Shown one piece after another: positions 18,591 through 64,000 of a stretch of DNA of 64,000 nucleotides (position 1 is its first letter; each line of letters begins with the position of its first letter). Origin of the DNA: Gracilariopsis chorda (lineage: Eukaryota > Rhodophyta > Florideophyceae > Gracilariales > Gracilariaceae). The translations under genes were made by a program, and so were the position numbers. The notes under the pieces were generated by a model, which was given only the letters and a program-made list of their open reading frames with translations, ran no database searches and had not been told where the DNA came from. Location of the stretch: contig NBIV01000198.1 in the NCBI GenBank assembly GCA_003194525.1, forward strand, positions 89,942 through 153,941, in the 5' to 3' direction.

Positions 18591-18628
18591 GGGCCCCATG
18601 CCTTGGCCGCCCCGCGCGCGTTAAGGCA

Positions 18629-23440: not shown

Positions 23441-23484
23441 GATTTCCAGTCAACTCCAATACCCTCGCGCGATGGAGTATATAC

Positions 23485-23840
23485 TGTGACGTTGCGGGGC
23501 TGAAAGGGAATCAGGTCGAACGACCAAGGGGCAGGCAAACACAGAGTTGGTGCTGCACCGGCCGCGGGGACTTGAGGTCAGTTCTGTTGTTCCCTCTCTG
23601 GCCTGACCGGGCTCACCTTTATTAGACCTACTCACTACCGCCGCCGGCCGCCCGGCGGTACCATGTCCTCCAATCACTGGACGCCATTGGTCCAAGTTGG
23701 CCGAACGGCTTACAGATGGGCGGGCTTCCACTACCGGAGAAACCTACCGCGCCATCCCGCTCTCGTCGTCCCGTGTCTGCCAAGCTCCCTCGACAGACCA
23801 CAGCGACGGACGCAGGCGAGTAGAACTACTCAGCGTCACA
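23485..23840 (-). repeat. Element 1, 5' LTR
   Basis: 356-bp LTR, TGTGACG...GTCACA, upstream of gag-pol on the minus strand and therefore the promoter-bearing copy. Target duplication GCGG lies just outside at 23841-23844. Confidence 0.95.
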
Positions 23841-23844
23841 GCGG

Positions 23845-41734: not shown

Positions 41735-42541
41735 TGAAGTGCAACGCCCTCAGGGAGGGATTCTTGGTACTTGATTGTTTTCCCGATATTATCGGTTGTG
41801 TAGTGTGTATATGAACTACGCCCCACTACGGTGGGTATGGACACGTGGGACACGGTTTTGGGTCAATTGGCGGTTGGCCACAGTAGTGGATGTTGCCACG
41901 GAATGTGGAGTACTTTAGTTAATTTTATTTATTATTTTCACACCCATTTCTGGGAAGCTAGTACTTAGTGCGACGGCGCACTGCCGTCGCACCAGTAAAC
42001 CTTCCCCAACAAGGGACCCCAACCTGGGGAATTGGCTCTGAGCTTTACCGCCTCCGCGTGTTCTCAACTCCTCCTTGGAGGGAAGCACCGTAGTGTACGG
42101 AAGTTCACCCCCCTTGCACATCTAAAGGAGACCCATCATTGGGAGTACTAATTGTTCCAATCATCTTGGTGTTTCGCCCTGTATAGGGAGTCCTGTCCAC
42201 CGGCATCGCCGTATCTACTCGTCGCTCTCGCGACCCACTCGTCCTTCCTCTTTCCCCTTTTTAGGGTAGCACCTCCCGCTATCCGCGGCCCTCGTGTGCG
42301 CATCCGCTCACACACCCCCACTTACGTGGAAACATACCTCTACTGAGGACCACACCCCGCTCACGCGGATACCGATTCTTCGCCTTCACCTCCCTGCGCG
42401 AGTCGCGACAGGTGTCCCTGGTCTTACAAACCGGCTTCGCCGTGACACCTCTGGGAGGGCTCTACCCAACTGGGTTCACCTCGTGAGAGGAAGATCCCGG
42501 ACGTCTTTCGGTGTTTTTCCCCTTTGGGGCATTGCACCACA
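41735..42541 (+). repeat. Element 2, 5' LTR (807 bp)
   Basis: TGAAGTGCAACG...CACCACA. It holds an AT-rich run (TTAATTTTATTTATTATTTT at about 41919-41939) followed closely by a 10-bp-stem hairpin at 41968-41992, a plausible polyadenylation/termination region. Many short perfect hairpins are scattered along it. Confidence 0.95.
41968..41992 (+). other. LTR hairpin, 10-bp stem
   Basis: GTGCGACGGC (41968-41977), loop GCACT, then the perfect complement GCCGTCGCAC (41983-41992), preceded by TACTTA. The same hairpin lies in the 3' LTR at 52701-52725. Element 3 has an unrelated-sequence hairpin at the equivalent place that shares TACTTAGTGC. Confidence 0.85.
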
Positions 42542-42544
42542 AAG

Positions 42545-42562
42545 TGGTCTCCCGACCTAGAA
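42545..42562 (+). other. Element 2 primer-binding site
   Basis: TGGTCTCCCGACCTAGAA begins three bases after the 5' LTR and would pair with a tRNA 3' end ending in ACCA. The identical 18-mer follows the LTR of element 3 at 54228-54245. The tRNA species was not identified. Confidence 0.8.
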
Positions 42563-42646
42563 TCGGTTTTTGTTTTCCCTCTTACGAGGTTTGTTTTCAT
42601 TCACCGGAAGTTCCGTGATCGTTTCCCGTCGTAACGGTATTTTCTC

Positions 42647-44821: not shown

Positions 44822-44838
44822 CTGAGGGAGTCTCCCCT

Positions 44839-47800
44839 TTGGGAGAGGCGTCCTCAGACAAGAGGCTGTTGGCGCCCGAGGCGTCCCTGCCTCGCTCCCC
44901 GGTGAAAATCCTCTCGAGGAAAGACACCGCTGACGCGGACTCTGCGCACCTCGGTGTGTTGCGTCGCCCGTGGATACGGAGTAAAAATCCCCGGATTCCC
45001 GGTAGAGTCTTGATCATGGCCAAGCGCAACTATAAGGTCTATGCCGACCTTGGCCTTGATCCCCAGTTTATGGTGAGGTTTCTCACCGTCCTGGATACAG
45101 GTGCAGGCCCCAACTTCGTTGTGGAATCATTGTTACCCCCACTTGTGCGGTCTCGTATCCGCTCTGACGCGGTCCCCGACATTTCGGATGCGAATAACAA
45201 CCCGTTACAAACGGTGGGCACGGTGGACCTCGTCGTGAGACTTGGTACCTCTGTGGTGAAGTTGGACTTCATCGTTTGCCGTTCATTGGCAGCACCAGTT
45301 ATACTGGGATGTGATTACTGCGACAGATTTGTCGACGCAATCAGGCCCCGCCTCAGGCGTGTAGAACTTGACGACGGATCGTCGGTTCCGATTGTTCGCC
45401 GCCCGCTAAAGCGGTCCTCTCGGAAACAAGTTCCGCTCCCTGCTGCGCAGGAACCACCGCCCGCGTCCCGCGAGTCCACCAAGCTCCGCGTCGCTGCCTC
45501 GGTTTCTATACCGGCTGAGTCCCAAGTCTGGGTACAGGTAAATTCCCGTCAACACGGTCTTCGGGTTATACAACCCCTCGCCTCGTTGTACGAGAAATCC
45601 CAGCTGGCGCTGGCTAATGGAATTGTCTCCATTTCCCCGGATGTTCCTTTCCGCATATTGGTTGCCAACCTTGGCAAACACCCCCAGTATCTGGTCAAAC
45701 ACCAAGTAATTGGGAGTGTAACCCCCCATCCTATGGGAATGCTGCCAACGAAGATGACAGCCGCCGATGTACTCGGAGTTACCACCTCTTCTGAGGAGTT
45801 CACCCCGCCGTCCGAAGACGTCAAGTCTAAGGAGGGGGAGGAAACCGCTACTTCAGCGTCGAACATACCGAGTAACTCGGAATTGCGAACCACACCTGTT
45901 CCACAGGACAATGCTCCATCGAACAATGACCGGATTGATCCGGAAAAAGCACTTGAAGCGCTGGACTTCAGCCACGTGCCAGAGTCGCACCGCGACAAAC
46001 TCCGTACTATGTTACGGGAATTCACCACAATTTGGGATGGCTCGCTTGGCGAGATTGATGCAACGGAACACCGGATCGATTTAATCCCCGGTGCGCGACC
46101 GGTTGCACAACCCCCTTACAGGGCAGGTCCGAAAGCTCGGGAAGAGGAGCAGTCCCAGGTGGACAAGATGCTCCGCGCAGGTGTGATTGAGCCCGCTCAA
46201 TCGCCCTGGGCATCCCCAGTTGTACTGGCTTTAAAGGCTGACGGAACCTGGAGGTTCTGTGTCGACTACCGCCGGCTCAATGCCGTGACTGTTAGGGACA
46301 CGTACCCCATCCCTCGTATGGACGAGTGCATTGACTCCCTTGGAGACGCCACCGTGTTCACGGCCCTTGATGCCAATTGGGGATATTGGCAAGTACCTGT
46401 CAGACAGGAGGATCGCGACAAAACCGCATTCACCTGCCATGCAGGAACGTACCGCTTCAAGCGGATGCCATTTGGGTTAACCAACGCCCCCGCCACCTTT
46501 CAGCGTGCAGTAGATATTCTACTCAACCGCTTTAAGTGGCGGAGTTGTCTGGTCTACCTTGATGATATTATCATCTTCTCCAACTCGTTGGACGACCATC
46601 TCACTCACGTCCGAGACGTGCTGACCGTACTCCGCGATGCGGGAATTACCCTCAAGTTGAGGAAATGCGAGTTTTTCACAGATACTGTGAAGTATCTGGG
46701 TCACATTATCCGTCCTGGACGGTTAGCGATCGAGAAAGCTCGAGTCAAATCCCTCGTTGAGGCGAAAGAACCCCGTACTCAAACGGAACTGCGCTCCTTT
46801 CTGGGGCTGGTCAACGTCTATCGACGGTTTATCCCGAACTTTTCGGATACTGCAGCGCCCCTGAACGCGTTGTTGCGAAAGGGGAACCCCCCAAAACTGG
46901 GAACATTTACGCCCGAGCAATCGTAAGCCTTTAACTCCTTGAAGGAGGCTGTCACATCAGCACCAATCCTACATCTCCCAAAACTTGGGTTGCCATACTC
47001 CGTAGATACGGACTCGAGCGACTACCAAGTCGGGTGTGCTCTTTTTCAAACCACCCCCGAGGGGGAACGACACCCAATTGGTTATTGGTCGCGCTCGCTC
47101 AATGTCCATGAGCGGAACTACTCCGTATCGGAGAAAGAGTGCCTCGCCGTCGTATGGGCGATGACCACTCTGCGCCCCTACCTTATGGGAGTCCATTTCA
47201 CCGTGTACACGGATCATTCCTCACTGAGGTGGTTAATGAATATCTCCGACCCGTCGGGACGCCTCATGCGCTGGAGACTCCGCCTCGCGGAATATGACTT
47301 CCAAGTCATTTATAAAAAGGGCGCGCAGAACACCCAAGCCGACGCTCTGTCGCGTTTACCCACAAGTGGGGAGGCACTCCCAACGGAGGATGATGAAGTC
47401 CCATGTTTCATGGCAATGGACCCGGATGATCCGGAATGGGCCGTCGAGGCTGAGCCAGAAAACTGGGACGAAGATGCTGACTTCGACTACCTACTCGCAT
47501 CGCGAGATGATTCTGAGAAACCCATACCGGGAAATTATGTACCGGTTGAGACCGAGGAAATGATCCGAGAACAATTCGGGGACCCCTTCTGTACAAGGAT
47601 ACGTGCACGCCTCAACGGCGGAGAGAACCTCCCCTTCGGGGTGAACGACATTGGTTACCTCGTGAGGACCGTCGAGGCTACCCCACAAGTTGTGGTACCG
47701 CACACGCTACAGAAGCGGATATTGCACCTTTCGCATTACCCGAAACTCGGGGGACACTCCGGTGGGAGGAAGCTTTATCTAACCCTTCGCAGGGATTTCT

Positions 47801-50430
47801 ACTGGCCCGCCATGGCGGTTGATTGCTACGCTACGGTGCGGTTTTGCACGCAATGCGCGAAGAACCGGGTCAAACTCCGGAAGCACTCCAAACGGATGAA
47901 GCTATTCCCCGCCAGGGCGCCGCTCGAGTTTGTCGCAATTGACATTCTCGGACCATTGCTCTCTACCAGGAGAGGCAACAAGTTCCTACTCGTTATTACG
48001 GACAGGTTCTCGAAATTAGTTCGGACAGTCCCTCTAAAGAGGATTACCGCCTACACGGTCGCTCACGCCTTTGTGCGGCATTGGGTGTTTGCCTACGGAC
48101 CTCCTTTGGAGCTACTTTCCGACAACGGGAAACAGTTCGCATCGCGATTTTTCCAGGACGTCTGTCGGATACTGGACGTGAAGAATCTCTTCACGACCAC
48201 GTATCATCCCCAGTCTAATGGGCAGGTCGAGCGTTTCAACCGGACAATGCTCGCAGCTCTCCGTGCTTACACGGCTGACCACCCCAAGACTTGGGATATC
48301 TACACGGATGCCGTGACCTTTGCGTACAATACGCAGGTACACCGGACTACCGGAATATCCCCTTTCGAGTTGGTCCTTTCACGGACACCCCCGCCAATGG
48401 CGTTGGAATCCCAACCTAGGTTGGACGCGTTCCCTTCTGTGAAGGATTACCGCCAGAAGTGGAAAGCATGGCTGACCAAGCTGGTACCCGCAGCGCGGAA
48501 GGCGATGGACCACGCCCAAGCCGTCTACAAACGGAATTTCGATGCTCGCTTGCGAGGAGGCAAACCGGAACAGATCAACTCCGGGGACTTCGTATTCGTC
48601 CGCAAGGAGTACTACAACCCTGAAAGGGAGAAGCACCATAAGCTCTCGCCTGTGGCGGATGGTCCTTTCAAGGTTATCTCCGTCACGACGGACACAGTGG
48701 TTGTGGAAATGGGTGACGCGCATGAGCGGTTATCTCGCGATCGCATCGTGCTAGCTCCGCCACCCTCGACTGAGGCTGCACCAGCTACGCTGGACCCTAC
48801 GCTGGAATATGGCTCTGCATCCGATACATCGGTGGTGAGACGGCCTACCGTGCTACCACACCCCTCCCGGGGACTCTCAGACCTACCGACCCTGTCGGAC
48901 TCACCGGCTCAGCCGGGTAATTCGGGCCTCTCTGTGCCCGCCCCTATGGCGCGAATCTACACCCGCCAGGCGGGGCATGTTATCCCTTATCCCGCCGCTC
49001 CGTCTCAGGAGGGGGAGGAGAACACTCGTTTTCGAGGAATGAGATCGCCGTCGCAACGGGAAACACGCCGTACCATACGGACAACTGACCGTGGAGCACG
49101 GAGTATCTCACGCGACACTAATCCCCCGTCCTCGGGCAGCGCTGTGCAACAGGAACCAGACGCGCAGGTCCCGCAAAGGCGGCAAATACACCGTGTTACA
49201 CGGGAAGCTGAAACGCAGCTACCGCACACCCCTGTCAGGGAAGGATCCCCGATACGGGAGTACGGCGACAATCGCCCTCAATCCCCTGAGCAGGGAGATG
49301 CCTCAAAGCCGCCATTGGCGGAAGTCCCCGCGGAAGCGGTTCAATCAGGTCGCTCAGACCCGCGCCCCGCGGAGAAGAGGCGCCCAGATACACCAGCGCC
49401 GCTGGGAAATACCCACACCCCTATCGGGGAAAAGGGTAGCCAAGCCGCATCCGAAGCTTCAGGCCCTGGCGCGCAGCGCTCGGAAACGCTCCCCGTCGCA
49501 GACGGAATCGAAGCCCCCGTTCCGGGGAATAATTTGCGCCAACCACCGCAACGCTGCGGCGAAGAACCGAGGAACTCGGGAAAAACGCGCGCCATCGCAC
49601 GCTCGAAACCGGTCGTATCGGACGCTGCTCCTCCTCATGGAGACGGTGCACCGCACTTAGCGGCCAGGCCCCTGAAAAGGGTGTCATCGGCACCTGCCCG
49701 GCACCCCCCAAAGGGGAATTTTGACCAAAATACCGGTGTACCGGAGTTAGCCTTAGGCAACCCCCCAGTAGCCGGGGACACCACGGCGCCGCCGGAACGT
49801 ACGGTGCAGAGCGCTCGTGCGCCTGGCAGGGAGGCGGTTTGCCATCCAACCACCGTGTCGCACGGGACCCCCCAGGGGATCGTGGAAACGCCGATTCCGC
49901 AGGAGCGGTCATCTTCCCGCAAACTCGCGGTTCGTGAGTTCAACCGCGAATGCGGAGTTCAAGTCCCCCGCCGGTTGGCGGTTCGCCTGGCCTACCGTGA
50001 AGACGGGAACAACGACACCCCAATGGGGAATGACTTGCCGGGGAAAACCGTGACACCACATACCCTCTTGAGGGATATTTTCCCGCATGAGCAGCGGCCA
50101 CTAAGACAGCGCACGGCAACGTCGGAGTTATCGCCGAACACCCTGCTAAGGGACATTATACCGCACCGCGGACAACCCTCGCAAGGGAGTACAACCACCA
50201 CCCGGCACGGCCGGCAGGTCTACGAACGAGAGTTCGTAGTAGACCGACTTGTCGGACACACCTGGGACCAGGATGGTATTCTACAATACCGCGTCCGCTG
50301 GTACGGGTACGACCCCAGTGGGGATACGTGGGAGCCAATTGAACACCTCCCACGGTCGCAGATCGTGCGATACCACCGTCAAACGGGAACTGCAGCCCCA
50401 GCCACGCTGGTTAATGCCCAAGTTGGGTAA
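44839..50430 (+). pseudogene. Pol of element 2 (PR-RT-RH-IN-chromodomain) with one in-frame TAA
   Basis: The frame is open from 44773. The protease has LDTGAGPN (about 45090). Reverse transcriptase has FCVDYRRLN, LDANWGYWQV and YLDD at 46555-46566. A TAA at 46924-46926 falls between reverse transcriptase and RNase H (...EQS, stop, AFNSLKEAV); the frame then continues unchanged to 50430. RNase H shows VDTDSSD, SEKECLAVVWAM and YTDHSSL. Integrase has an HHCC domain (HYPKLGGHSGG...CTQC) and catalytic D-D-E in AIDILGP, LSDNGKQF and ERFNRTM. After a low-complexity linker of about 430 residues comes a chromodomain (about 50220-50390; RVRWYGYDPSGDTWEPI). One nonsense change is the simplest reading, since LTRs are nearly identical; readthrough is possible but unproven. 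Confidence 0.9.
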
Positions 50431-50623
50431 CGTTGCCGCGCGAGCGGAGGGCAATGAGAAAGGATAGCAAGGGAAAGTCCGTCTAAGACGGGGAATGCTA
50501 ATTGGAAATCACCGTTCTAAACGGGAAAGTTTATTCAGGGGAGCAGCTAGCTCCTCACGATACTACACTACACTAACTGGCATAGCCAGGGAAAGAATAC
50601 CAGGAAAACTGGACAAAAGGAGC

Positions 50624-52411
50624 TCACTCTTCGCCGTTGCCCGGGGCGTAACCCCCAACAAGGCGGTAGGCCAACGCGTCCGCCATGGTGGTGACATCCC
50701 CCGATACCTCGGCAGCGCTAAGACCGGCACCCCGGAGGAAACGTGCGATGATTTCGTTTTCATTCGCCGTCACCCCGCTGGGGATAGAAGGTCCGGCACT
50801 TGCCGTTGAAGGGTCAGCAGCCGGCTCGGCCGGAGATACCCCCTCTGGGAAAGCTTCCGCGCTAGCGCCGGTTTCCTCTACGTCCATCTCCCCGGGTTCT
50901 TCCGGTTCGTTATCGACCATTGGGTCATCCCCGCCGTATGCGTGGTAGTAGTCGTCAGAATCGACGTACCCCACCGGGTGGTCTTCCGGCACATGCCGGG
51001 GCGTATCGCGGAGCTCTCGCGCCTCCTCGGAGGAAATTTCCCGGAACTCCCAGGGGTCGAAGTAGATAAAATCCCCCGCAAGGGCGGTGTTTCTACCGAG
51101 TCCCGGACCACCGGTGTTACCGCTGCCGCCATCCAGACGACCGCTTTGCTCCAGCGGGACCTCACTCCAGCTAACGCTGTCGATGTACCCAAGTAATTGG
51201 AGGACCTCTTCATTGTTGGCCTGGCCCCCAAGGGGGATGCGAAGATCCAGGTTTCGGATCGCTGCCCGCACACGCGGTTGAAGGAACCAGAGACGATACT
51301 GGTCGTACGCCTCGTTGAGGATATAAGCCGCACTGCGGGCCGCCCACTCCGTAACCACTACGGACCACAACCCCGACCGGGGATCCTGCATGAGCAGCGA
51401 ACCGAGGTACGTAAGTACCGGCGGGAGTTCTATGTAGCACCCCCAGCAGGCTTCATGGAAGCGCCACCACTCGGGGAGTGCTACATACCGACCTAGTCGG
51501 TGAGGCGGCGCAATCCGCTCTATCTCCACGTTCTGATACGGGATAAAGTACCCGAATCGGGATCGCCAACGCCGCTCGTAGCGGATGAAGTTTTGGAGAA
51601 AGTTGGACCGGTATTGCCGGGGAAGGTACCTGAACTCCGCCCGAATAATCGGTCGCTCCCAGCAAAGGGCCTCTTGCCGCGCTGCGGGGAAATTCCTCCA
51701 AGCGAGGGTCTCGAGGCGGAACAGGTTCTCGCCGTACCCAATCTCCCCGCGAGTGCGGAAGTAGCTAACGTCGAAGCCAAACTCCGGTGGGACCGGTACA
51801 TCGAATGGAGCCCGGCTCTGCCGTTGATACGCCATACGCGTCAGCGCGGTCTGTGCCGCAGTGACGGTCTCGCCCGAGTTTCTTCGGAGGTGGTGACGCG
51901 GAATCGCAATCCGGTGACGCCAATCCCACGATGTGGTGACTGCTCTGGGCAGATCCCCCGGAAGGGTGTCTGAACCATCCGCATAAGCGGTGACCAATCC
52001 CTCATTGAGGACGGCGACCGGGTGAAACCACGGGGCAAGGCGCAGGCGCGACGCGTGATTCCGATTCATCGGGTTGAGCCCCACCAGGGTGTTGTAAGTT
52101 GGCCAGTTGGACACCGGAGTGGTCCCGGAGGACACCACCGAAGGTGGTAGTGCGAAGGGATGGTCGGCTTCAGCAGCCATATTTCCCGGTTGTACCGGAT
52201 TTCGATCGCCCTGAGGCAGGGGAACTGACCGGAAACCGGTGGTGTATCGCCCGAGAAGTCTCGGAGGTTGGCTGTGGTTATTGATGTTGTTGTCGTCGTT
52301 CATTTCTCCCTTGTCGAGGGTGGCTGTTGTTGTCGTTTGTGCACTTGAGGACTCTGGTGCGGAGGAATTTACCGGAGAACCGGAGACAAAGCACTCGCTT
52401 TTATCACCCAT
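50624..52411 (-). CDS. Antisense ORF of element 2 (595 aa), unknown function
   Basis: A clean 595-codon frame lies opposite to gag-pol, tail-to-tail with pol (193 bp apart). Its ATG is only 57 nt from the 3' LTR, so a promoter in or at the antisense face of the 3' LTR is likely. The N-terminus (1-110) is Ser/Thr/Pro-rich. The middle (about 110-400) is rich in Trp, Tyr and Arg (WRFHEACWGCYIEL, RRWRSRFGYFIPY). The C-terminus (about 455-560) is acidic (YVDSDDYYHAYGGDD, NEPEEPGEMDVEE). No signal, membrane or known domain is recognised. Homologous segments exist at the same place and orientation in element 3 (for example YVAL-PEWW matching YVRA-PQNW, and LGSLLMQ matching LVSLVMQ), which argues for a real, selected protein. 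It could be an RNA/DNA-binding or anti-silencing factor; that is speculation. Confidence 0.7.
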   Translation of the reverse strand: MGDKSECFVSGSPVNSSAPESSSAQTTTTATLDKGEMNDDNNINNHSQPPRLLGRYTTGFRSVPLPQGDRNPVQPGNMAAEADHPFALPPSVVSSGTTPVSNWPTYNTLVGLNPMNRNHASRLRLAPWFHPVAVLNEGLVTAYADGSDTLPGDLPRAVTTSWDWRHRIAIPRHHLRRNSGETVTAAQTALTRMAYQRQSRAPFDVPVPPEFGFDVSYFRTRGEIGYGENLFRLETLAWRNFPAARQEALCWERPIIRAEFRYLPRQYRSNFLQNFIRYERRWRSRFGYFIPYQNVEIERIAPPHRLGRYVALPEWWRFHEACWGCYIELPPVLTYLGSLLMQDPRSGLWSVVVTEWAARSAAYILNEAYDQYRLWFLQPRVRAAIRNLDLRIPLGGQANNEEVLQLLGYIDSVSWSEVPLEQSGRLDGGSGNTGGPGLGRNTALAGDFIYFDPWEFREISSEEARELRDTPRHVPEDHPVGYVDSDDYYHAYGGDDPMVDNEPEEPGEMDVEETGASAEAFPEGVSPAEPAADPSTASAGPSIPSGVTANENEIIARFLRGAGLSAAEVSGDVTTMADALAYRLVGGYAPGNGEE

Positions 52412-52455
52412 TTTCGTCTGGGAATCCTCCGCGTCCGCGGTCGTTTTCCCGTCTT

Positions 52456-52467
52456 AGGGGGGGGATA
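52456..52467 (+). other. Element 2 polypurine tract
   Basis: AGGGGGGGGATA directly precedes the 3' LTR, the expected place for plus-strand priming. It lies inside the untranslated leader of the antisense ORF. Confidence 0.8.
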
Positions 52468-53274
52468 TGAAGTGCAACGCCCTCAGGGAGGGATTCTTGG
52501 TACTTGATTGTTTTCCCGATATTATCGGTTGTGTAGTGTGTATATGAACTACGCCCCACTACGGTGGGTATGGACACGTGGGACACGGTTTTGGGTCAAT
52601 TGGCGGTTGGCCACAGTAGTGGATGTTGCCACGGAATGTGGAGTACTTTAGTTAATTTTATTTATTATTTTCACACCCATTTCTGGGAAGCTAGTACTTA
52701 GTGCGACGGCGCACTGCCGTCGCACCAGTAAACCTTCCCCAACAAGGGACCCCAACCTGGGGAATTGGCTCTGAGCTTTACCGCCTCCGCGTGTTCTCAA
52801 CTCCTCCTTGGAGGGAAGCACCGTAGTGTACGGAAGTTCACCCCCCTTGCACATCTAAAGGAGACCCATCATTGGGAGTACTAATTGTTCCAATCATCTT
52901 GGTGTTTCGCCCTGTATAGGGAGTCCTGTCCACCGGCATCGCCGTATCTACTCGTCGCTCTCGCGACCCACTCGTCCTTCCTCTTTCCCCTTTTTAGGGT
53001 AGCACCTCCCGCTATCCGCGGCCCTCGTGTGCGCATCCGCTCACACACCCCCACTTACGTGGAAACATACCTCTACTGAGGACCACACCCCGCTCACGCG
53101 GATACCGATTCTTCGCCTTCACCTCCCTGCGCGAGTCGCGACAGGTGTCCCTGCTCTTACAAACCGGCTTCGCCGTGACACCTCTGGGAGGGCTCTACCC
53201 AACTGGGTTCACCTCGTGAGAGGAAGATCCCGGACGTCTTTCGGTGTTTTTCCCCTTTGGGGCATTGCACCACA
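52468..53274 (+). repeat. Element 2, 3' LTR (807 bp)
   Basis: Copy of 41735-42541 with one mismatch seen (C at 53154). Followed at once by the AATGG target duplicate (53275-53279). Contains the hairpin at 52701-52725. Confidence 0.95.
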
Positions 53275-53564: not shown

Positions 53565-54226
53565 TGTAGTATAGCGGGCCCGCCGGGAGTGCACTTCAGA
53601 GTGTGCTTGAGTGCCTTCAAGCACCGTATCCGAGCGGATTGTTTGGCACGTTATGATTGGCCGAACGGAATCATTGAGTGGTGCACGGGAGCGGGCAATG
53701 CCATTGGTTGTGCACTCATAGCCCACAGGTGTACACGTGCCGGACGGCTGAGGTGCAGGGTTGCTGCGCCAGACGGACAGGTAGCCACGTGGCTGGTGGC
53801 ATTTGTACGATAGGCTTAGATATTTTAATAATTTTATCCGTACGTAGTAGAAGGGTAGCGATTGCGGTGCAGGTTGAGCTCGAGGTGCAGTACTTAGTGC
53901 ACCTCGCTCCCCGCTACCCACACTCAGTAAACGGTAAGCACCACCGTCCCGAACTACTTTTGTCTCTAAAGCAGACCTGAGACATTACTCCGTACGGGAC
54001 TCAACTAGGTTTACAAGCCGTTCGGACTCTTCGCGCGTATCTCGACCGCGCCTGACGTACCTAACCGCCCAGTCTTTCCTACGACCGCCCGGTGCTGGCG
54101 CTCGTCCCCACGCATCACCTCCCCCCCGACCGGATCTCGTGACCCATCACGCCCCGCTACGCACGCCGAGCGGATACTGCTTCTAGGACACACTTTCAAT
54201 TGTGTGAATTAGATCACTATCTCACA
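53565..54226 (+). repeat. Element 3, 5' LTR (about 662 bp)
   Basis: The start (TGTAGTATAGC) is set by where the copia frame is broken, the end (...CTCACA) by the primer site that follows. The partner LTR lies outside the window, so the bounds are provisional. It holds CCGNNCGG at 53661-53668 and at several places after 53730, and a nested hairpin at 53853-53919. Confidence 0.75.
53853..53919 (+). other. Nested hairpin in LTR of element 3
   Basis: Outer arms GGGTAGCG (53853-53860) and CGCTACCC (53912-53919) enclose an inner perfect 9-bp hairpin, CGAGGTGCA (53881-53889), loop GTACTTAG, TGCACCTCG (53898-53906). It follows an AT-rich run, as does the hairpin in the LTR of element 2, and shares TACTTAGTGC with it. 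Confidence 0.8.
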
Positions 54227-54227
54227 C

Positions 54228-54245
54228 TGGTCTCCCGACCTAGAA
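54228..54245 (+). other. Element 3 primer-binding site
   Basis: TGGTCTCCCGACCTAGAA, identical over 18 nt to that of element 2 (42545-42562) although the flanking sequences differ. Confidence 0.8.
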
Positions 54246-54542
54246 GTGGGACTCGTGACTTTCCGTACGGATTTTAGAACGTTTTGGATAACGAACACGA
54301 GATGCAGACACGTGACGCAAACGTGGAGTCGACCGCAAGGTCGATGTCGAAAAAGAATTGGCTCCGTCCGGCGAGCCACCAATGCAGACCGCTTCGGACA
54401 ATGCCTCGGTTGGCCGCCGCAGCACCCGTAGCACTGCACCAGCTCCGGACGTCCGATTGGAGAACCCCGAGGTGCTCGTGCGCAAAGCTCCTCGCTCCTC
54501 CCGGCTTCTCAAACGCCTACCGACCGGAATTTAGGCCCGTCA

Positions 54543-56477
54543 ATGAACCCAGAGGGTGCAGCACCGCTCCCTCTACTCGCCACTCCGACCGGCCTAGTGG
54601 CAGCCGAAATTCCCGCACGGACGCTCCCAGAACTGTGGAAGCAGCTCGAGCCCTATTGGGGTTACAAGCTGAAGAGCGAGCTTGCTGCTCGTGTCCCCGT
54701 TCGGGTTGAGCGCTACCTGCAGGAGCGCCTGCCAGAACTGCTGGCAGAACTGATTACCCCGACGGTCCGCCAGACCACCGAGGCAATCCTTCAGCAGCTC
54801 CTTCCGACCGGACTTGGTGCCATGAAGCACGAGGACCGTACGGCAGTTTATACGGCAGCGACAACGCTGCCACCCCTTCCCAAGTTTTCCCTTGGCCGAC
54901 CGGACCAAGCCCAATTACACACCGGACGGGATGAGGAACCCCACCCAGAAGGGGCCATCAGAGTGCCCCCATGGTCCCAGTCCTCCCGGTGGAACCCCAC
55001 CGAGATGATCCGAACGGAAATTCAGACAGCTCCTCTTCTAACGAAGGAAGAGGGGGCCGCCGTGACAGGGCGGCAGAGCTGACAAGTCCGACACGGATCG
55101 CCCTCGCCGCGCACGGAAGAATCGTCGCCGCAGGAAAAAGCGACATTCCTCCGGTTCGGATACTGATTCTGACCGCTCGGATAGTTCCGATGCCGTTTCC
55201 GGAACTGATAGCGACTCAGACTCCGACCGTTCTGGCCGCAGAGGCCGCTCCGACCGGTATCGTTCCCGTTCGGAAAGATCCGCGCCTCGGCGCATCAAAC
55301 CACTGAACGAATTGTTCACCAGGGTGGTGAATTATCGTACGTACCGGCTAACCAATCGTAGCCAATCGTACAACTCGCGAGTCGCGCGTAAGATTACGCG
55401 CTACCAGAAGAAACTGAATGTCCAGATGAAGGGACATTCGTTTTCCGGAGCGGATCCGATATCCGTTCTAAACTTTTTACAGCGGTTCAAGACCGCCTGT
55501 AACCATAACGGACTGTCCGAGGGAGCAGCGGTATGGTGCTTCCAATTCTACCTGACCGGACCGGCTCACTCACTGATCCAGTCACGGCTCATGGAGAGTC
55601 GGGCGCCGTGGATGTACGACGTGGCGAGATGCTCCGCTCATACTCCGAAGTCGTCAACTTTTTATTGACAACGTACGCAACGGATGAAATAATTGCCGAC
55701 GCGTACTCCGAGGTCACCCTCTACCGTCAGTCGTCGGGTATGTCCGAAACGGAGTATTCACAGAAGCTGTGGAACAAGGCCCTCCGTTGCGGCAATGTAT
55801 TCTCCGACCGGCGTTTAAAGTCCCTATTCGTGGAAGGATTACTTCCTTCCATTCGGGCGAAGGTGAGAAATCACCTTACGACGCATCCGTCCATCGGCTA
55901 TGATGCGTTGGCGAGGTATGCCGAATCGTATGGCGACACCAGCCGTTCGGTACGACGACAATCCGTTCGGCTTGACTCCCTTCCCCATCCCACGGGGAAA
56001 AGGGTGGCCGCTCGTACAGACCGTCGGAGTGTCCTAAGCATGGGGAGCCGTACGGATTCGGTAGCCTCCGACACCGATGACGGTGAGGCCGTCCTGGCAT
56101 TTACCCCGGTCGGCTCCGCCCATCACCCCCACGACGCCGTCAACCGCGACGACCTCGTACCGTTCGGGACCCTCCCGATCGGATTTTTATAAGCCTGCTG
56201 ACGCTCGGCACCAACAAACCGACAGCCGGACGGGAAGCAGTTGATGGACAAACCGTGTCGGATTTGTCTGTCACGGGAACCGGACCACTGTCAAATGATC
56301 CCTCCGAACGTTCGGGATGCTCTGCTAGCCGCTCGGGAACAAAACTACCAACTTCGCAAAGAAGAGAGTTACTACAACCGTAACACTCCCGGTCGGTCCA
56401 GCATTGGGGTCCGGACCCTGGGTCAGCAGACTCCGAACGGAAACCTCCTGCATACGATCACGTCAACCGCTCAATAA
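54543..56477 (+). pseudogene. Gag of element 3, frameshifted
   Basis: The N-terminal part (54543-55082) contains a helical segment (ELWKQLEPYWGYKLKSEL). A basic, Ser/Asp-rich part follows in a different frame (55081 on, RRARKNRRRRKKRHSSGSD). The capsid-like domain starts in that frame (HSFSGADPISVLNFLQRF) and returns to the first frame near 55620 (FLLTTYATDEIIAD, ALRCGNVF, FVEGLLPSIRAKV). A shortened knuckle-like CRICLSREPDHC lies at about 56255. The order and sequence parallel Gag of element 2, so the frame changes are indels rather than different genes. Confidence 0.75.
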
Positions 56478-56607
56478 TGGCCGTTGAAAGATCACGGCAT
56501 GTCCGAGTCGGAAACGATGTGGAGGGAGCGTAGAGGCAACGCCCCCTCCGAGGTCGGAACGCCTCACCCGAACGAACGGTTTAGATTCTTCGCCCAAGCC
56601 GGACGAA

Positions 56608-57345
56608 GTGTACGTTGTGGATGAGTATGAGCCGACAGCCCCAGTGGCCCTTTTAAAGAATACCCACTATAAGATAAACTTTTCTGTGGGATTCTCCCGC
56701 TCGGTCTTGTACCCCCTCACCGGTGTACTTGACACCGGCGCTGGCCCTAACCTCATCCACGAACGGAACCTCCCCCTAATTGGGAGGAGCATCTCCAATC
56801 CCGTTCGTTCACCAACATCACGGATGCCTCTCGGAATCGTATGAACATCCGTGGTGTTGTTCCCCTACTCGTACACATCGGAGCTCTAACCGTTCGGATC
56901 CCCTTTCTCGTTGCCACCAACCTCGCGGCCAGTTGTATTCTCGGTACTTCTTTTATCGATAAGTACGTCATGGCAATACTACAGACCCGCACGGACAATA
57001 ATCTTACGTCACTCCCACCCGTGGCGATTCAATCTTCTGCCGGTCGGTCCTCTCGCTCGCCGGGAGAGCACGTACCGGCTACCACTCGGAAGACCCCTTC
57101 TAATAAGATACGGGTCGCCGACCGGTCGTCATACCCCCATGTCGGAATCATCCGTCCGGGAAACCACCAAGGCGGCCGGCCTTGCATTCTTGCAAGGATA
57201 TCACCGTTCGGCTAGCCGGCAGGAGTTAACCCTCCTGGCCAATGGCATCATGAACTCCGTCCGGACGTACCATTTTACGTCCAAGTGGCGAACTTTTCCG
57301 ACCGTCCGGTACGCTTACACAAGCGTACAATCATCGGATTAGCTC
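56608..57345 (+). pseudogene. Protease region of element 3, frameshifted
   Basis: The retropepsin motif LDTGAGPNLIHE (about 56730) matches LDTGAGPNFVVE of element 2. The frame breaks near 56800-56840 and the rest (VPLLVHIGALTVRIPFLV, ILGTSFIDKYV) is read in another frame from 56841. A further change leads into the RT frame at 57285. Not functional as it stands. Confidence 0.7.
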
Positions 57346-58346
57346 TACCCTCCCCCATCGCGTTAATCACACCGGAATTTCCGTCACGGAGTGACGAAAC
57401 TAAGGAGGGGGGACCCTTGCCTAATTCATTTTCCGATACGGACAACGCAGCTAACCCGCGCGTTCAGGCGCCACCAAAGGATCCGGACGATTGGATATCC
57501 AATATCCAATTGGCGCCCGAACACGAATCCGAACGGACGAAGATTGTCGAGCTACTGCGCCCATTCCGGGATATGTGGGACGGCCATCTCGGACGTGTGG
57601 CAGCGGCAAAACACCGCATTGAGCTGGAACCCGGCACGCGGCCAATTTACCAAATGCCGTACCGTGCGGGCCCCGCTCGTAGAGAACTTGAACGAGCGGA
57701 AGTCGAAAAGCAGCTCAGACAGGGCGTTATTGAGCCCTCTACATCTGAGTGGGCCAGCCCGGTCGTGTTTGCTCAGAAGAAGGACGGTAGCCTGCGCTTC
57801 TGCGTAGACTACCGCCGCCTAAACAAAGCAACCGTACGGGATACCTATCCACTACCGAGGATGGATGAATGCATCGACTCCCTTGGGGAGGCGAAGATAT
57901 TCACCACCCTCGATGCCAATAGCGGATATTGGCAAGTGGAAGTGGATGAGACCGATCGGGACAAGACTACCTTCACCTCACACATGGGGCTGTTCAGGTA
58001 TTTACGAATGCCGTTCGGATTGAAGAATGCTCCGGCGACGTTCCAACGTGCACTGGATATCATCCTATCCCGTGTGAAGTGGCAGTACGCATTGGTCTAC
58101 CTTGATGACGTCATCATCTACTCCAGTTCGGTAACCGAGCACTACGAGCACGTACGGACAATTCTGACCCTACTCCGATCGGCAGGCGTGACGCTACGTC
58201 TGGACAAGTGCCACTTTTTCAGTAGCACGGTCGACTACCTTGGCCACATCATCCGTCCGGCAAGCTTCAAGTGTCAACAAAGACACAAGAAGCAATCCGA
58301 GCGGCTAAGCCACCGACCAACCAGACAGAGCTCCGATCGTTCTTAG
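57285..58346 (+). pseudogene. Reverse transcriptase of element 3
   Basis: About 325 residues of good RT sequence: FCVDYRRLNKATVRDTYPLPRM, LDANSGYWQV, MPFGLKNAPATFQRA and YLDD at about 58098. The frame fails after LGHIIRPASFK near 58265, where a single-base indel moves RNase H to the frame starting at 58271. The catalytic residues are intact; the enzyme is broken only at its junction with RNase H. Confidence 0.85.
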
Positions 58347-60871
58347 GCCTGTGTAACGTCTTCCGCCGGTTCGTCAAGAATTTCGCTCGAGTTGCGGCAC
58401 CGCTTAACCGCAAGCTCGAGAAAGGCCAACCGGTCTGCTTCGATACTCTGTCCGATGAGGAATACCAGGCGTACGATGAGTTACGGCAACGGCTCATTCG
58501 ACCGCCTATCTTGGCAATTCCGCGCCAAGATATGCCGTACGTTCTGGACACTGATGCCTGTGATAAACAGGTAGGTTGCGTTCTCCTACAGAAGCAACCG
58601 GACGGCGACCTACTCCCGATCGGCTACTGGAGCCGTTCTTTGTCGAAACCCGAACGGGACTACACCACGACCGAACGGGAATGTCTCGCCGTTGTATGGG
58701 CGATATTGCACCTCCGACCGTACCTGGAAGGCCAGAGAATCACGCTCCGCACGGACCACCACGCATTACGGTGGATACTCAATCTGGCCGATGCCACCGG
58801 TCGGCTAGCACGATGGCGCCTGCGCCTCATGGAGTACGAATTTGACATCGTACACCGACCGGGAGTTAAGCATCAGGCAGCCGATGCTCTTTCCCGAATC
58901 CGAACGGACGGCGAAGACACCAACCCCCTTGACGAGGAGGTGCCGTGCCTCCTGATATCCGACCGAGCGGAAGAAGACGACGATTTGGTCGCCGATGTCA
59001 CCATCGACGGACAGGAGCACCGAGGCGTCACGCTGGACACCCCGTGCGGACATGACCCGGTCGGAATTCCAGAGGTCCTCGCAATAGTCGAGGAAGAGAC
59101 GGACGTCCGGCCAATCACGGTCGAAGAATTCGTCCGAGCCCAGGCCGAAGACGGATATTGCAAGACCGTGCGGAAGGACATTGGTGACGGTGTCACGCTA
59201 TTCGACGTGAACCGGTACGGAATTATCGTCCGACGCTCCCCCTTGGATGGTGCTCTCCAGCGAGTGGTGCCCCGTGCACTGGTACCGCGCGTGCTGTATC
59301 TCGCGCACTATCCGCGCTTGGAAGGGCACCCGGGCGGGACCCGCATGTACAATACCCTGAGGAGGGATTTCTACTGGCCGCAAATGGCGAACGATGTGTT
59401 CCAGACCGCACGGGACTGTCGATCGTGCGCTGCCGTGCGGGGAACTCAGTACCGGTCGCAGAAGCGACTCAAGCTGTTTCCCGCTGCCGGACCATTGGAA
59501 TTTGTCGCAATGGACATTGTCGGTCCATTCCCGAAGTCCGTCAACGGCTACGAGTATATCCTCGTCATTACCGACCGGTTCTCCAAATTATGCCGCGCTA
59601 TCCCGCTACGGTCAACCACAGCTCCCGTGGTTGCCAGGGCTTTCCTGGAAAACTGGGCGTATCCGTACGGCATTCCTAACCACCTACTTACCGATAACGG
59701 CCCGCAGTTCGTCTCCAAGTTTTTCGAAGAAGTCTGCGCCGCACTGGGGACAAAGCACGTGCGGACCACGGCATATCATCCCCAGACGAACGGTCAAGCC
59801 GAACGGTTTAACAAGATACTGGTGCAACGACTGCGACACTATGTCGCAGACCACCAGTCTAACTGGCACGCTTACGTGCAACCAATTACGTACGGATATA
59901 ATCTACAGGTCCACCGGAGCACCGGGACCACGCCTTTCGATTTGGCGTTAACCCGTGTCCCGCCGAACGTAATACTGGATGAGCCCAGTTCCGCAACGGA
60001 CCCGCGAACGCCGGTGCAACCGACGCCTGCACAGATGAAGCGTTACACTCTACGTCTTTTAAAGACGACGCTTCAGTCCGCTCGGAATCGCCTCACCGCT
60101 GCGCAACGGCGTTACAAAGAGGACTTCGATAAATCCGTACGGCTAACTCCAACCTTCCGACTGGGACAGGAAGTCTTTCTAGACCGCCCGGCTACTACTT
60201 CGACCGATGCGGCCCTGGAGGAGCACGAACGTACGTCACGGAAGTTTTCATTGAGAACGACCGGTCCGTACGTCATCATATCCGCGACGGACACCACCGT
60301 GACCATTGACGTTGACGGCGTTCATGACACCGTCAGCATCGATCGCGTCACGTTGGCCCCCGCTCGGCAGTCGAAATCGCACGGCAGGAGCCACCCGGAC
60401 GGAAATGCCCAAGACACGCTGACCGGAAGCACTCCCGCTCAATCGCGAGATACCCCGAGCGGTACAAATAGTTCCAAGCGGACGTCCCGGCCACTAACAC
60501 CTAACACACCCCCAGCCACCGAATTGGCAGAACCGGACGGCAGAGTGGATCTCCCTAAGGCGGGAACCTCACCGAACGGAGACACAACACCTGCCCGGGA
60601 CCACGAGTCTTCCCCGAACGGAAACCGACCGCCAACGACGTTGGCCGTTGTCGACCGCATTGTCGACCACGGCCGATCGGCCAACCACCCGTACGGAAGA
60701 TTATACCGCGTCCGCTGGCACGGATACTCCGCTCGGCATGACACATGGGAACCGCCCGAACACATACCGCCACATTTCGTTGCACGGTATTGGAACCGAC
60801 GGGCCGCACGGAGGCGCCCCACTTCAGGAGGGGGGGAATCAAACCCCAAACCCCTGAACCGAACGGAATGA
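58271..60871 (+). pseudogene. RNase H, integrase and chromodomain of element 3 (866 codons open)
   Basis: The frame opens right at the indel and stays clean for 866 codons. RNase H shows DTDACDKQVG, TERECLAVVWA and RTDHHAL. The integrase zinc domain has HYPRLEGHPGG...CRSCAA, and its catalytic D-D-E lies in AMDIVGP, LTDNGPQF and AERFNKI. A low-complexity Pro/Thr/Ser linker leads to a chromodomain at about 785-845 (RVRWHGYSARHDTWEPP). It resembles pol of element 2 throughout. A G-rich run (AGGAGGGGGGG at about 60828-60838) lies inside the last codons. CCGNNCGG occurs about once every 80 nt across this segment. Confidence 0.88.
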
Positions 60872-61686
60872 CGCCCCAAAACAGGCAGTTCCAAGCTTCC
60901 AAGCGGAGACATTCAATGGGGACACTCAACAATTGCTCCCAAACCGAACGAAAACGGCCTCGCCGAGATCGACACACTGTGAAACGGCGAACGAAAGAAC
61001 CGCAAACACTGAGCACCACGACCTACGAAGGGCTGCGCGTTCGCGGAAAGCCGTACGTACGTCACGGAAAGCGCCACCCGCATCGAGCTCACCGGTCACG
61101 CGTGCACCAAGCATGTCCACGCGTCAACCAGCATTGCTGGTGCCCGAACGGGGGCGAGTGCATGCACTCCTTGCCCGCATACTGCCGGCGCCGCCGCGGT
61201 TACTTGCAAGGATAATCAAAAAATTACGCGCGGAAATTGCCTGCCCGCACGGGGTCGAAAACGGCGATTTACCCTTTCGCCGATATCTCCGGAAAGGTGG
61301 CGTTTCAGACCCTCAAAATGGCCGATTTGGCTTCCCCGCACGGTCAAATAACTTAGAATGTTTTGAGACGCACCACACGCTCGCTACGTGCATTACTATA
61401 TACCGAATCGGATACCGAACGGCGACGCATTGCACCGCCCCTGAAATCGCACAATTCCCGATTTTTTGGATTCCGATCGGCGCTGACCACCGAGCAGGAC
61501 GCGGGCGCGCTAACGCTGACGTGGCAAGCAACGTCCGCGTGACACCCCCCTACGCGCGGCGACGATGACCTCACCCGGCTACAAGACCGCATGGCGGGAG
61601 TGCTCAAACGCTACCACGGGGAGCGAGACACACACAACAATAACAAGGTTTACTCAGTACGGACGGGAGGCTATGCTAGCAACCCA
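60872..61686. other. Element 3: spacer between pol and antisense ORF region
   Basis: No frame here is convincing (60933-61568 on plus is Arg-rich and low-complexity). CCGNNCGG continues (for example near 61146, 61416 and 61471), showing that the motif is not tied to coding sequence. Confidence 0.4.
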
Positions 61687-62157
61687 CTAACGGCCCCTAC
61701 GAGCGGAGGACGGCTGCGTCTTTGAGATGCCGCCACGAACGCCAGGCGTACTCCCTCCGCGACCGCCACGAACGCCAGGCGTACTTCCTCCGCGACCGCC
61801 ACGGCTAGCAGAAGCTGCACCGCGAGTACGGCCACGCGTACTGACGCCCGGAACCGGAAGGCTAGCCGAACCAGGGCTGACCCCCTGTGGGGTGGGAGGC
61901 CTCTGACCGGACGGAGTTGCAACCCCAGCCATCGGGGTAGGTGTGCTACAGCCCGCGGCAGCAGCCGTACCGCTACCCGAACTCGGCATCACCGGCAGCT
62001 CCGATACGGATTCCACTCCTTGGCCAACCACGGTACTGGCCGGCAGACTGGCCAAGCTTCCGTCCGGTTGTACGAACGGCACCTGCCCACTGCGGAGAAC
62101 ATTTACGAGCCGGCTGCCATCTGCTGCCTCAATCGGCGTTTTCCCCGCTCGGCGCAA
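61687..62157 (-). CDS. Antisense RGG-rich ORF of element 3 (156 aa), possibly the C-terminal end of its antisense gene
   Basis: A Pro/Ser/Gly-rich sequence ending in RGG repeats: SRGGRGGSTPGVRGG repeated, made by a 33-bp tandem repeat (61731-61796). RGG boxes commonly bind RNA. It lies on the same strand as the antisense ORF pieces further right and may be the tail of one broken gene. Element 2's antisense ORF has no RGG tail. Function unknown. Confidence 0.45.
   Translation of the reverse strand: MRRAGKTPIEAADGSRLVNVLRSGQVPFVQPDGSLASLPASTVVGQGVESVSELPVMPSSGSGTAAAAGCSTPTPMAGVATPSGQRPPTPQGVSPGSASLPVPGVSTRGRTRGAASASRGGRGGSTPGVRGGRGGSTPGVRGGISKTQPSSARRGR
61731..61796. repeat. 33-bp tandem repeat encoding an RGG motif
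   Basis: Two copies (61731-61763 and 61764-61796) differ at one base (CTCCCT versus CTTCCT), with a partial third copy starting at 61797. The unit length is a multiple of three, so the frame is kept. Confidence 0.9.
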
Positions 62158-62383
62158 GACGAGTGGTAATGGCAGGAAGCCACGAAGCCGCCAACTCCTC
62201 CCCGTCCGGAGCTGTACCCGGAGGACGCAATGCGGCCCGGATGGCTCCGAACCACAGGGTCCCCCGGTTCCTCGCGGTCAACAAGCTCCGTGCGGCAAGT
62301 ATTGAGCCCCTCAGACAGTACGGCCGGACTTGTCACCCCATCCGAAACGGCAGCATCCCCGAAGACCTCCAGGTGCCTTTCCA

Positions 62384-64000
62384 CTACGTCGACGGCAAGA
62401 TCACCCATGAATAACATGAGGTCGATGAGCCCGAGCGTATCCCTCTCACCACCCTTTCCGCTTTGGCAAGACGCTCGAGCCAGAGGCACGAGCTGACTAA
62501 CGCGCTCGTCACGGAAGTCGGAGCCGGGACTCCAAAGCGTCCACATGCTTCGGTCAGTGCGGTCAGAGCAGCTAGCTCCTCAGCCCGTTCGGCAGGATTC
62601 ACGTCGTCCGTCTGGGTACCCACTTCCTTGCTACCCGCCCCTGGCAGCCTCCGCTCCGGCTCCGGAGGAGCAACCTCCATGGCCTGAGCAGCGACACTCC
62701 GAGCGGGTCGAATTCGGCCACGTTGGGGAAATCCCACGGCGGCCGTACGGGGCCCAACTGGAGACGATGGGTGAGCGGGAACGGATCGGTGGGAAATCCG
62801 CGGCATCTCGGGAAAAGTTTCCGTCCGGGGATCAAACCACAGATAGCCTGGGGTCACGACCCAATCGGTCATCACCGACAGGTATAGCCACCTCCGCGCG
62901 GTCTCGGTTGCATAGATGGTGCACGAAGAACGTTCTCCAGCCCCCATCTGCATTACCAATGAGACCAAGCCGTACGCAACGGGAACAATCTCCAAGCCCG
63001 GGCGGTTCACGAGTGTTCGGTTGCCCCGGGAACCCTCGGAAAAAGTTAACTCGAGGATCTCCGTACGGGTGAACACCCGAACTCCTTCGAAGCGGTTTGG
63101 AGAAAGGCCATCAGAGCGCACACGGCCATTCCGCAATGGCGATGCGCATGACGCGCTCACTCAGGGCACTGTCGCGGAGCACCTCACCGGAGTAATAGGC
63201 CAGGACGGGCGGGGGTGATGACCGACAAATCACGGGTAACGTCAAACCTCCCCCCAGTTCTGGGGAGCCCGAACGTACAACTTCTCCCGATCGGCTGGGC
63301 TCACATCGAAGAACTCGATGTTGTGCCAACAGAACATGTATCTGTCACGGTTGCTGCGCAGACGCGCCTCCGTTGCGATATTGTCGCCCAACGGCGACGA
63401 TTTAACCAATACATCCGGTCGTACGGTCGAGAAAAACATACGAGCTGCAGCGGGTTACTGTCCGCACTGGGGAAGTCCACCATCGTCGCCATACGTCCGA
63501 TCAGTCCCGCATGCGGGCCTGACATTGAATACTCCTCCGGGCACCGGAGGAAGGCATGTCACAGCTGCCGACCGTCGTGTCGCTCTGGAGGCCGGCGATC
63601 CCCTGGAGATGTCGCCAGCGCTGTGCCCAGCCTCGCCCCGAGTACGTTTCGGGTTCCGGCCGGTTAGCTCAAAGAACGAGCGCCGTACGGGAATCGCGGC
63701 AAACCGCTTCGCGTCCAGGAAGTCGCGCAAGTCCGGAGCGTTGATCAGCTCCTCCACACCGTACGGCGGCTGCTTGTTCTGGCCACTGGACCCCGAACGG
63801 CGAAGGCGGTGATCGTACTGCTGCCCCGGCAACGGCGTTGCGAAAGTCCCGGGGAGATTCGCGCTTCCGGTCGGCTGGCTCGTACTTCCGGTTGGCGGCA
63901 GCGGGAGCGTCTGAGACGCGACCCTCGGTATGGATACCCCGCTCGGATCAACGGAGTGACCCGGAGGGGCATTCTCTTGGTTGTTTCCGCTCGGAGCGTT
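62384..64000 (-). pseudogene. Antisense ORF of element 3, frameshifted homologue of the element 2 antisense ORF; runs off right edge
   Basis: Pieces in several minus-strand frames line up, in order, with the 595-residue antisense protein of element 2. They are LIGRMATM...DFPSAD (63301-63525 frame) with LFRLETL...NFPAAR; RLRSNRDRYMF..HNIEF and LYVRAPQNW (63242-63439) with RWRSRFGYFIPYQNVEI and RYVALPEWW; and LVSLVMQMG...ARRWLYL...LWFDPR (62384-63160) with LGSLLMQDP...ARSAAYI...LWFLQPR. The similarity is weak but colinear. At least two frame changes and in-frame TGAs (about 63242) break it. The frame entering from the right edge (64000-63455) is Pro/Ser-rich at its start, as in element 2. Confidence 0.6.

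Follow-up and report, generated by a model that had tools for sequence, protein, structure and literature searches.

Family-specific codes of short palindromic sites along several chromoviruses of the red alga Gracilariopsis chorda

We analysed a 64,000-nt stretch of the genome of Gracilariopsis chorda (contig NBIV01000198.1, positions 89,942 to 153,941), hereafter the window, which carries three long terminal repeat (LTR) retrotransposons, named elements 1, 2 and 3 (Table 1). Coordinates are those of the window, and L-numbered loci are other copies or families from the same genome (91.3 Mb, 1081 contigs). A Pfam scan matched reverse transcriptase (RT), RNase H, integrase and a C-terminal chromodomain in elements 2 and 3, and the first three in element 1, whose chromodomain scored under the Pfam cut-off (20.5 vs 25.1 bits). 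The target-site duplication of element 2 measures 5 bp in the five copies with both ends readable; element 1 has LTRs, and a clear duplication was not seen around it. The pol protein of element 3 has matches at 71% in Agarophyton chilense and at 57% at best in Chondrus crispus. Gracilariopsis chorda and Gracilaria domingensis belong to the Gracilariales, as does Agarophyton; Chondrus does not. Our search for relatives yielded none from viral contigs. Several of the chromovirus families here have their own codes of short sites with two-fold symmetry, which run along the whole element and disregard gene and codon boundaries.

Table 1. Coordinates of the three elements in the window and of their parts
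Feature	Position	Strand	Remarks
Element 1	18235..23849	-	compact; one 1603-aa polyprotein (18629-23440)
Element 1 LTRs	18235-18597 and 23485-23849	-
Element 2	41735..53274	+	chromovirus carrying mini-hairpins
Element 2 5' LTR	41735..42541	+	TG...CA, 807 nt
Element 2 3' LTR	52468..53274	+
Element 2 target-site duplication AATGG	41730..41734 (left) and 53275-53279	+
Element 2 gag-like ORF	42647..44821	+	CCHC knuckle CHLCYAHGHTSPQC; without Pfam match
Element 2 RT ORF	44839..46926	+
Element 2 RNase H-integrase-chromodomain ORF	46939..50430	+
Element 2 antisense ORF	50624..52411	-	595 aa; without Pfam match
Element 3	53565..64000	+	Ty3/gypsy chromovirus, truncated by contig end
Element 3 5' LTR	53565..54226	+	662 nt; matches the 3' LTR of a further copy (L025:6613-7276) at 99.2% identity
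Element 3 RT ORF (RVT_1)	57285..58346	+
Element 3 RNase H-integrase-chromodomain ORF	58271..60871	+

Element 3 is saturated with CCGNNCGG, of which it holds 107 copies in 53565-64000, against a mean of 8.6 in 100 dinucleotide shuffles (sd 2.8, max 20). An earlier, sequence-only reading of the window had put the number of copies in 58261-60900 at about 33; there are exactly 33, and the four that it cited individually are where it placed them. It had expected one or two by chance in that stretch, which is too few: about 2 come from scaled dinucleotide shuffles and 7 from codon shuffles of the open reading frame (ORF). In that ORF (58271-60871) the 33 copies compare with a mean of 7.0 in 200 codon-preserving shuffles (sd 1.9, max 12), and the RT ORF (57285-58346) has 9 vs 1.6 (max 5; codon shuffles). 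The motif is also dense in the LTR, the spacer and the antisense-ORF part, as had been claimed, with 10 copies vs 0.3 in shuffles of 53565-54500 and 25 vs 3.2 in 60900-64000; dinucleotide and codon shuffles alike fall far under the observed density. CCG and CGG separated by 0 to 15 nt occur 3, 5, 107, 22, 13, 8, 9, 6, 14, 9, 7, 10, 10, 10, 11 and 6 times, so that the N2 spacer alone stands out, with N3 (22) as the runner-up. The centre had been described as free: it does vary, but CC, GG, CG and GC together account for only 6/107 sites. Extended hairpins around CCGNNCGG were searched for and none were found. As a side observation, the RT and RNase H-integrase ORFs of element 3 overlap in different frames at 58271-58346, and two close copies have a single longer open frame across that overlap (1462 and 1297 aa).

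The density of CCGNNCGG stops at the LTR, the edge of the element. The first site of element 3 lies at 53630, there is none in the 290 nt that separate elements 2 and 3, and in the copy at L025 they run out at the outer boundary of its 3' LTR (none in 2856-6666; LTR match from 6613). The host stretches of the window hold 1 copy in 18,234 nt and 3 in 17,885 nt, and host ORFs have no clear excess over shuffles: the single copy previously noted in pyruvate kinase is there (1 vs 0.2), and copine and a further long ORF have none (expected 1.0 and 0.2). The copies in element 1 had been undercounted at about two; there are 10 (dinucleotide-shuffle mean 2.3).

Element 2, with only 2 copies of CCGNNCGG, carries 224 mini-hairpins of the form CCNN(N)-3/4 nt-(N)NNGG, about 20 sites per kb; as counted for the shuffles they number 226, against a mean of 13.6. 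Their density is 15-25 per kb in the LTR, gag, RT, integrase, spacer and antisense ORF. Codon shuffles give 3.4 for the 41 hairpins of the gag-like ORF, 3.5 for the 32 of the RT ORF, 8.9 for the 75 of the RNase H-integrase ORF and 5.2 for the 33 of the antisense ORF, and in each of the four the count is above all 200 shuffles. The hairpins occupy all three codon phases in the three sense ORFs and are uneven in the antisense ORF (17/5/10). Among CC...GG spans of 11-13, Watson-Crick pairing is 0.43-0.60 at depths 3-4 and 0.52 at depth 5 (span 13) and falls to 0.18-0.28 deeper in, from which we take the loops to be 3-4 nt long. The pair just outside the stem is Watson-Crick in 0.06 (stem 4, gap 4), 0.03 (stem 5, gap 3) and 0.31 (stem 4, gap 3) of cases: outer pairing is avoided in two of the three stem classes, and the third overlaps the stem-5 class. 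Separately, both LTRs of element 2 (41968-41992 and 52701-52725) contain a perfect hairpin with 10-bp arms and a 5-nt loop, the longest in these LTRs among loops of 0-7 nt.

In element 1 the sites are palindromes around GNNC. It has 46 NNNN-GNNC-NNNN palindromes vs 2.1 expected, 51 perfect palindromes with a 2-nt gap and 5-bp arms vs 6.5 in dinucleotide shuffles, and 48 with 5-bp arms in its ORF vs 6.7 in codon shuffles. The inner G..C pair is required, four further pairs being found in 46/489 GNNC, 3/465 CNNG, 0/265 ANNT and 3/254 TNNA. Relatives of element 1 at 66, 59 and 52% identity have 2, 2 and 1 GNNC hairpins, and on this comparison the strong GNNC code arose within the lineage of element 1 itself, after the split from the 66% relatives. 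Two relatives, L046 and L047, show a weaker excess of palindromes with 5-bp arms and a 4-nt gap (18 vs 6.1, z 6.0; 13 vs 4.9, z 4.1), perhaps a fainter code of their own. An unexplained excess of CGTN19CAG (14 vs 2.1 expected) was also seen in element 1 (18235-23784).

These codes are nearly exclusive between elements. Mini-hairpins number 224 in element 2 and 12 in each of elements 1 and 3, with 13 in 36 kb of host DNA; CCGNNCGG has 2 copies in element 2, 10 in element 1, 107 in element 3 and 4 in that host DNA. The sequence-only reading missed that elements 1 and 2 have tags of their own. Families elsewhere in the genome carry further codes, among them CCWN1-2WGG, CCTNNAGG and CCGN3-4CGG. 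L021 and L022, counted as one family (99.7% identical over 6 kb), use CCAN1TGG, CCTN1AGG and CCTN2AGG; L023 has 40 CCTN2AGG vs 6.1; and L024, with the weakest code, has 27 CCGN4CGG and 22 CCGN3CGG, each vs 5.5. CCGN2CGG persists in relatives of element 3 at ~58-66% protein identity (29 in L005, 26 in L018 and 35 in L020 per ~5 kb). The spectra of CC-Nn-GG have a sharp, family-specific lower edge, at n=3 in L021 and n=4 in element 3, and that of element 2 rises from n=5 to a peak at 7-9. The spacing of the sites is near-random (CV 0.83-0.91), no regular spacing was seen, and the sole tandem repeat found within the three elements amounts to 2.2 copies of 33 nt (61730-61803).

The motif class follows the pol phylogeny. 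On a pol tree of 18 pieces the six motif classes need 5 changes, the minimum, against a mean of 7.7 for shuffled labels (0/200 as low), in a setting where the classes were assigned by us, near-copies inflate clustering, only 5/15 inner branches are well supported, element 1 covers a quarter of the columns and the CCGN2CGG class is not one clade. The CC/GG codes are absent from the Helitron region, the only non-LTR element examined, which has a palindrome excess at gaps 3-6 (z up to 4.2) that comes at least partly from short repeats near L025:5365-5512 and 5838-6430, as judged by eye. The host stretch 1-17000 of the window has a peculiarity of another kind, clustered GGG runs with about 20 GGGNnGGG vs 3.3 expected at many spacings.

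The sites are conserved where relatives allow a comparison. Between element 3 and L005 (66% protein identity), 15/16 L005 sites in the aligned ORF coincide in position with one of the 33 sites of element 3; element 3 likewise shares 8/10 sites of L018 and 12/17 of L020. At third codon positions, with L005 as the reference, differences amount to 1/32 in CCG/CGG, 8/13 in NN, 21/38 in the flanks and 390/620 elsewhere; counting from element 3, and hence also from sites that L005 lacks, gives 11/48, 11/16, 40/60 and 357/578. Per-position divergence in the element 3 clade is likewise lower at the six fixed bases than in the centre and flanks. The earlier proposal of a whole-element tag beyond codon usage is borne out here by the codon shuffles, the sharp element edges and this third-position conservation of the six fixed bases.

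Element 2 was compared with L026 and L027, which form one subfamily (84-85% protein identity) and are not independent. Divergence is 0.030-0.041 in stems, 0.094-0.109 in loops and 0.072-0.094 in the remainder, the stems diverging about a third as fast as the loops; by position it is 0.004-0.054 across stem depths, 0.057-0.135 in loops and 0.031 at the +1 base. At third codon positions, stems differ at 19/390 and 22/379, loops at 20/161 and 22/156, and the rest at 326/1979 and 286/1947. As a caution, CC...GG pairs without paired arms also diverge less than average (0.036-0.073), and part of the conservation may belong to CC/GG as such. On these alignments, purifying selection holds the paired or palindromic bases more than the loop or central bases in elements 2 and 3. 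We limit this claim to those two elements because element 1 lacks suitably close relatives among the matches listed, which include none between 67% and ~100% identity.

Which nucleic acid carries the code can be approached through strand polarity, judged by ratio, with no formal test, against the frequencies of GG|A and T|CC in the same sequence. The sites of element 2 are strand-polar: A follows 110/220 (control 0.34) and T precedes 32/224 (control 0.23). The values are 73/143 (0.37) and 23/146 (0.22) in gag-pol, 15/35 (0.29) and 5/36 (0.25) in the antisense-ORF part, and 11/19 (0.26) and 2/19 (0.25) in the LTR, so that polarity keeps to the element (genomic-RNA) strand in all three parts. 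Together with the avoided outer pair, this points to a folded single strand, with the genomic RNA as the most natural candidate. In L021, T precedes 68/206 sites (0.19) and A follows 86/184 (0.36) in pol, and the figures in the antisense ORF are 25/99 (0.24) and 55/99 (0.29). The raw P values for polarity in L021 (4e-8) and L023 (1e-4) turn into near-equal ratios once controlled. For dyads without element-strand polarity, with short gaps and no stem extension, a double-stranded DNA reading is favoured.

Family-specific and, in the two families tested, conserved as they are, these palindromes look like an identity tag. Their reader would be a symmetric nucleic-acid-binding protein evolving together with the element, most likely the element's own Gag or coat assembly machinery. 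Gag would bind these mini-hairpins or dyads, scattered along the genomic RNA or its cDNA, and each family would thereby package and copy only itself, like the dispersed packaging signals of some RNA viruses. We put forward this self-recognition code read by Gag or coat protein tentatively, at less than even confidence. With the same reserve, half-site, gap and stem length may together form a family code that overrides synonymous freedom, by which each family's assembly protein would distinguish self from foreign nucleic acid and related families sharing a nucleus would be reproductively isolated. Several observations speak for it. The sites of element 2 lie throughout its LTRs, gag, pol, spacer and antisense ORF, as expected of a signal for coating the whole molecule, and combine arbitrary complementary arms, loops of at least 3 nt, conserved stems and a +1 A that is likewise conserved; element 1, with one large ORF and tetraloop-like GNNC hairpins, needs no separate antisense gene; and family specificity tracks pol, the Helitron being without the CC/GG code. 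For single-stranded RNA viruses, multiple dispersed packaging signals have been described (Twarock et al., 2018; PMC6281560), which resemble element 2 in being many short stem-loops of variable sequence around a common feature on one genomic RNA. Stems, polarity and conservation are all present in element 2, and stems only in element 1. Unlike the viral signals as described there, the sites of element 3, L021, L023 and L024 are minimal dyads and not stable stem-loops.

A number of results weigh against this proposal. No reader protein was found, and a CCHC knuckle occurs only in element 2 among the sense frames scanned in the three window elements. The relatives of element 1 at 66-52% identity are without the GNNC code, so the code is not universal. 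Polarity does not exceed the controls in the element 3 clade, L023 and L024, and in L021 it goes with the coding strand. The dyads of the element 3 clade, L021, L023 and L024 have gaps of 1-4 nt and stems that do not extend, and the gaps of 1-2 nt in element 3, L021 and L023 are too short for ordinary RNA hairpins. Element 2 shows no tolerance of G.U, one-sided changes giving 23 G.T vs 32 A.C in four overlapping comparisons, and in 50431-52467, compared with L027, conservation is the same in stems (4/291) as in loops (2/117), with 68/1627 in the rest. The excess of RNA folding over shuffles is modest and alike on both strands, with a mean z of -0.3 to -1.3 in the elements and -0.05 to -0.2 in the host.

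The close rival is a tag at the level of DNA, in which a dimeric protein encoded by the element or the host would bind double-stranded dyads and oppose silencing, or compact or protect the cDNA, the family being set by half-site (CCG, CCW, CCT) and a spacing of 1-4. The nucleic-acid evidence is divided between this rival and the RNA or cDNA code: polarity and stems point both ways between families, which is why we hold the RNA or cDNA code to be the likelier of two possibilities by a small margin only and the DNA tag to be possible, though somewhat doubtful. The dyads of element 3, L021, L023 and L024, with preferred half-sites and spacing and no controlled element-strand polarity, fit the latter, as does the conservation in element 3 of just the six half-site bases, neither centre nor flanks. 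The dimeric binding site suggested by the sequence-only reading suits element 3, where the flanks lack polarity, the half-sites are fixed and no stem extends; alone it does not explain elements 1 and 2, whose arms are arbitrary yet complementary. Such covarying arms, and the sense-strand polarity of element 2, are not expected of a dimer on double-stranded DNA. A methylation site, also suggested then, is not supported as a general explanation, as the motifs of element 2, L021 and L023 need no CpG.

A reader for a DNA tag could be the antisense protein, which is conserved and alignable between element 2 (595 aa) and the L021 family (735 aa; L021:2220-4427) and has relatives in Gracilariopsis chorda (50%) and Gracilaria domingensis (48%). 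Its structure model is poor (mean pLDDT 46.9). Judged by eye, element 3 may contain a disrupted version of it on the minus strand near 62384-63160. The opposite strand of element 1 offers only frames overlapping the polyprotein; these lack Pfam matches, and the longest (318 aa) is not similar to the antisense protein. Lacking a separate antisense gene, element 1 makes this protein unlikely as a reader for all families, which leaves Gag, integrase or a host protein as candidates.

Proteins of the Zn2Cys6 type bind everted CGG repeats, CCG-Nn-CGG, with the spacing as specificity code. CCGNNCGG shares this geometry, unlike the codes of other families with CCA, CCT or arbitrary arms; no Zn2Cys6-type domain was found in the element ORFs scanned with Pfam, and no search was made for one encoded by the host. 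The VANC/VANDAL anti-silencing system of Arabidopsis is similar in having a short motif that is dense in one family, rare elsewhere and different between related families, and in the proposed co-evolution with an element-encoded reader (Hosaka et al., 2017; PMC5735166). Its motifs stand mainly in non-coding tandem repeats and in one orientation. The sites described here are, unlike these, palindromic, single and dispersed, in coding and non-coding sequence alike and in LTR retrotransposons, and in the element 3 clade their positions are common across 66% protein identity; the contrast counts against the DNA tag. The Pfam scans of the element ORFs brought up no VANC homologue, and no direct search for one was made. 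VANC arrays and dispersed packaging signals are the nearest analogues, and neither fits fully. In open-access PubMed Central we found no account of LTR retrotransposons filled with family-specific palindromes, and CCGNNCGG itself came up only in Streptomyces work.

The remaining explanations fare worse. RNA structure that hinders silencing or degradation by the host, with no dedicated reader, would suit the slightly better folding of the elements than of their shuffles and the many local hairpins of element 2; it does not predict fixed family-specific sequences such as CCGNNCGG and CCTNNAGG or the base-by-base conservation in element 3, and we consider it unlikely. A mutational origin is disfavoured a little further. 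Template switching by reverse transcriptase (snap-back copying) would keep producing perfect palindromes with no function and would account for the arbitrary complementary arms of elements 1 and 2 and for the rise of the element 1 sites after its split; yet it should yield many paired double changes. In the four comparisons of element 2 (two related copies, both directions), pairs altered on both sides and still paired number 3, 7, 2 and 6, against 22, 31, 33 and 29 altered on one side. Nor does copying of this kind agree with the CC/GG ends of the element 2 sites or with element 3, which keeps one fixed sequence in both arms despite near-saturated synonymous divergence.

It is more improbable still that the palindromes are landing pads, drawing the integrase of the element to its older copies for new insertions. 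A slight preference of LTR retrotransposons for palindromic targets has been described, as has the insertion of some families into their own copies (PMC6911290); the preference is weak and lies in the target DNA, while here the body of the element itself is filled. The targets of element 2 were read from 17 junctions of nine copies, with a duplication in four of these and in the window copy. One of the five (GTGTC; C104 copy, L036/L037) is a palindrome with 7-bp arms, as judged by eye, and the other four are not obviously palindromic; no CC...GG hairpin was seen by eye at the insertion in 5/5 targets (TAAAG, AGACT, GTGTC, TTTTC and AATGG). Finally, although the elements are richer in GC (57-59%) than the host (~50-52%), chance, dinucleotide content, base composition and codon usage are refuted by counts far beyond the codon and dinucleotide shuffles, together with the non-coding sites, the spacer specificity and motifs that are nearly exclusive at similar GC.

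How LTR retrotransposons choose their own RNA, and how families avoid cross-mobilisation or shared silencing, is to our knowledge poorly understood. Our findings offer a candidate signal that is legible from sequence, with dozens to hundreds of sites per element, distinct between families and conserved where tested. If the packaging reading is true, the pattern would be a form of dispersed packaging signals. The family codes also make it possible to screen other genomes for such a layer from sequence alone.

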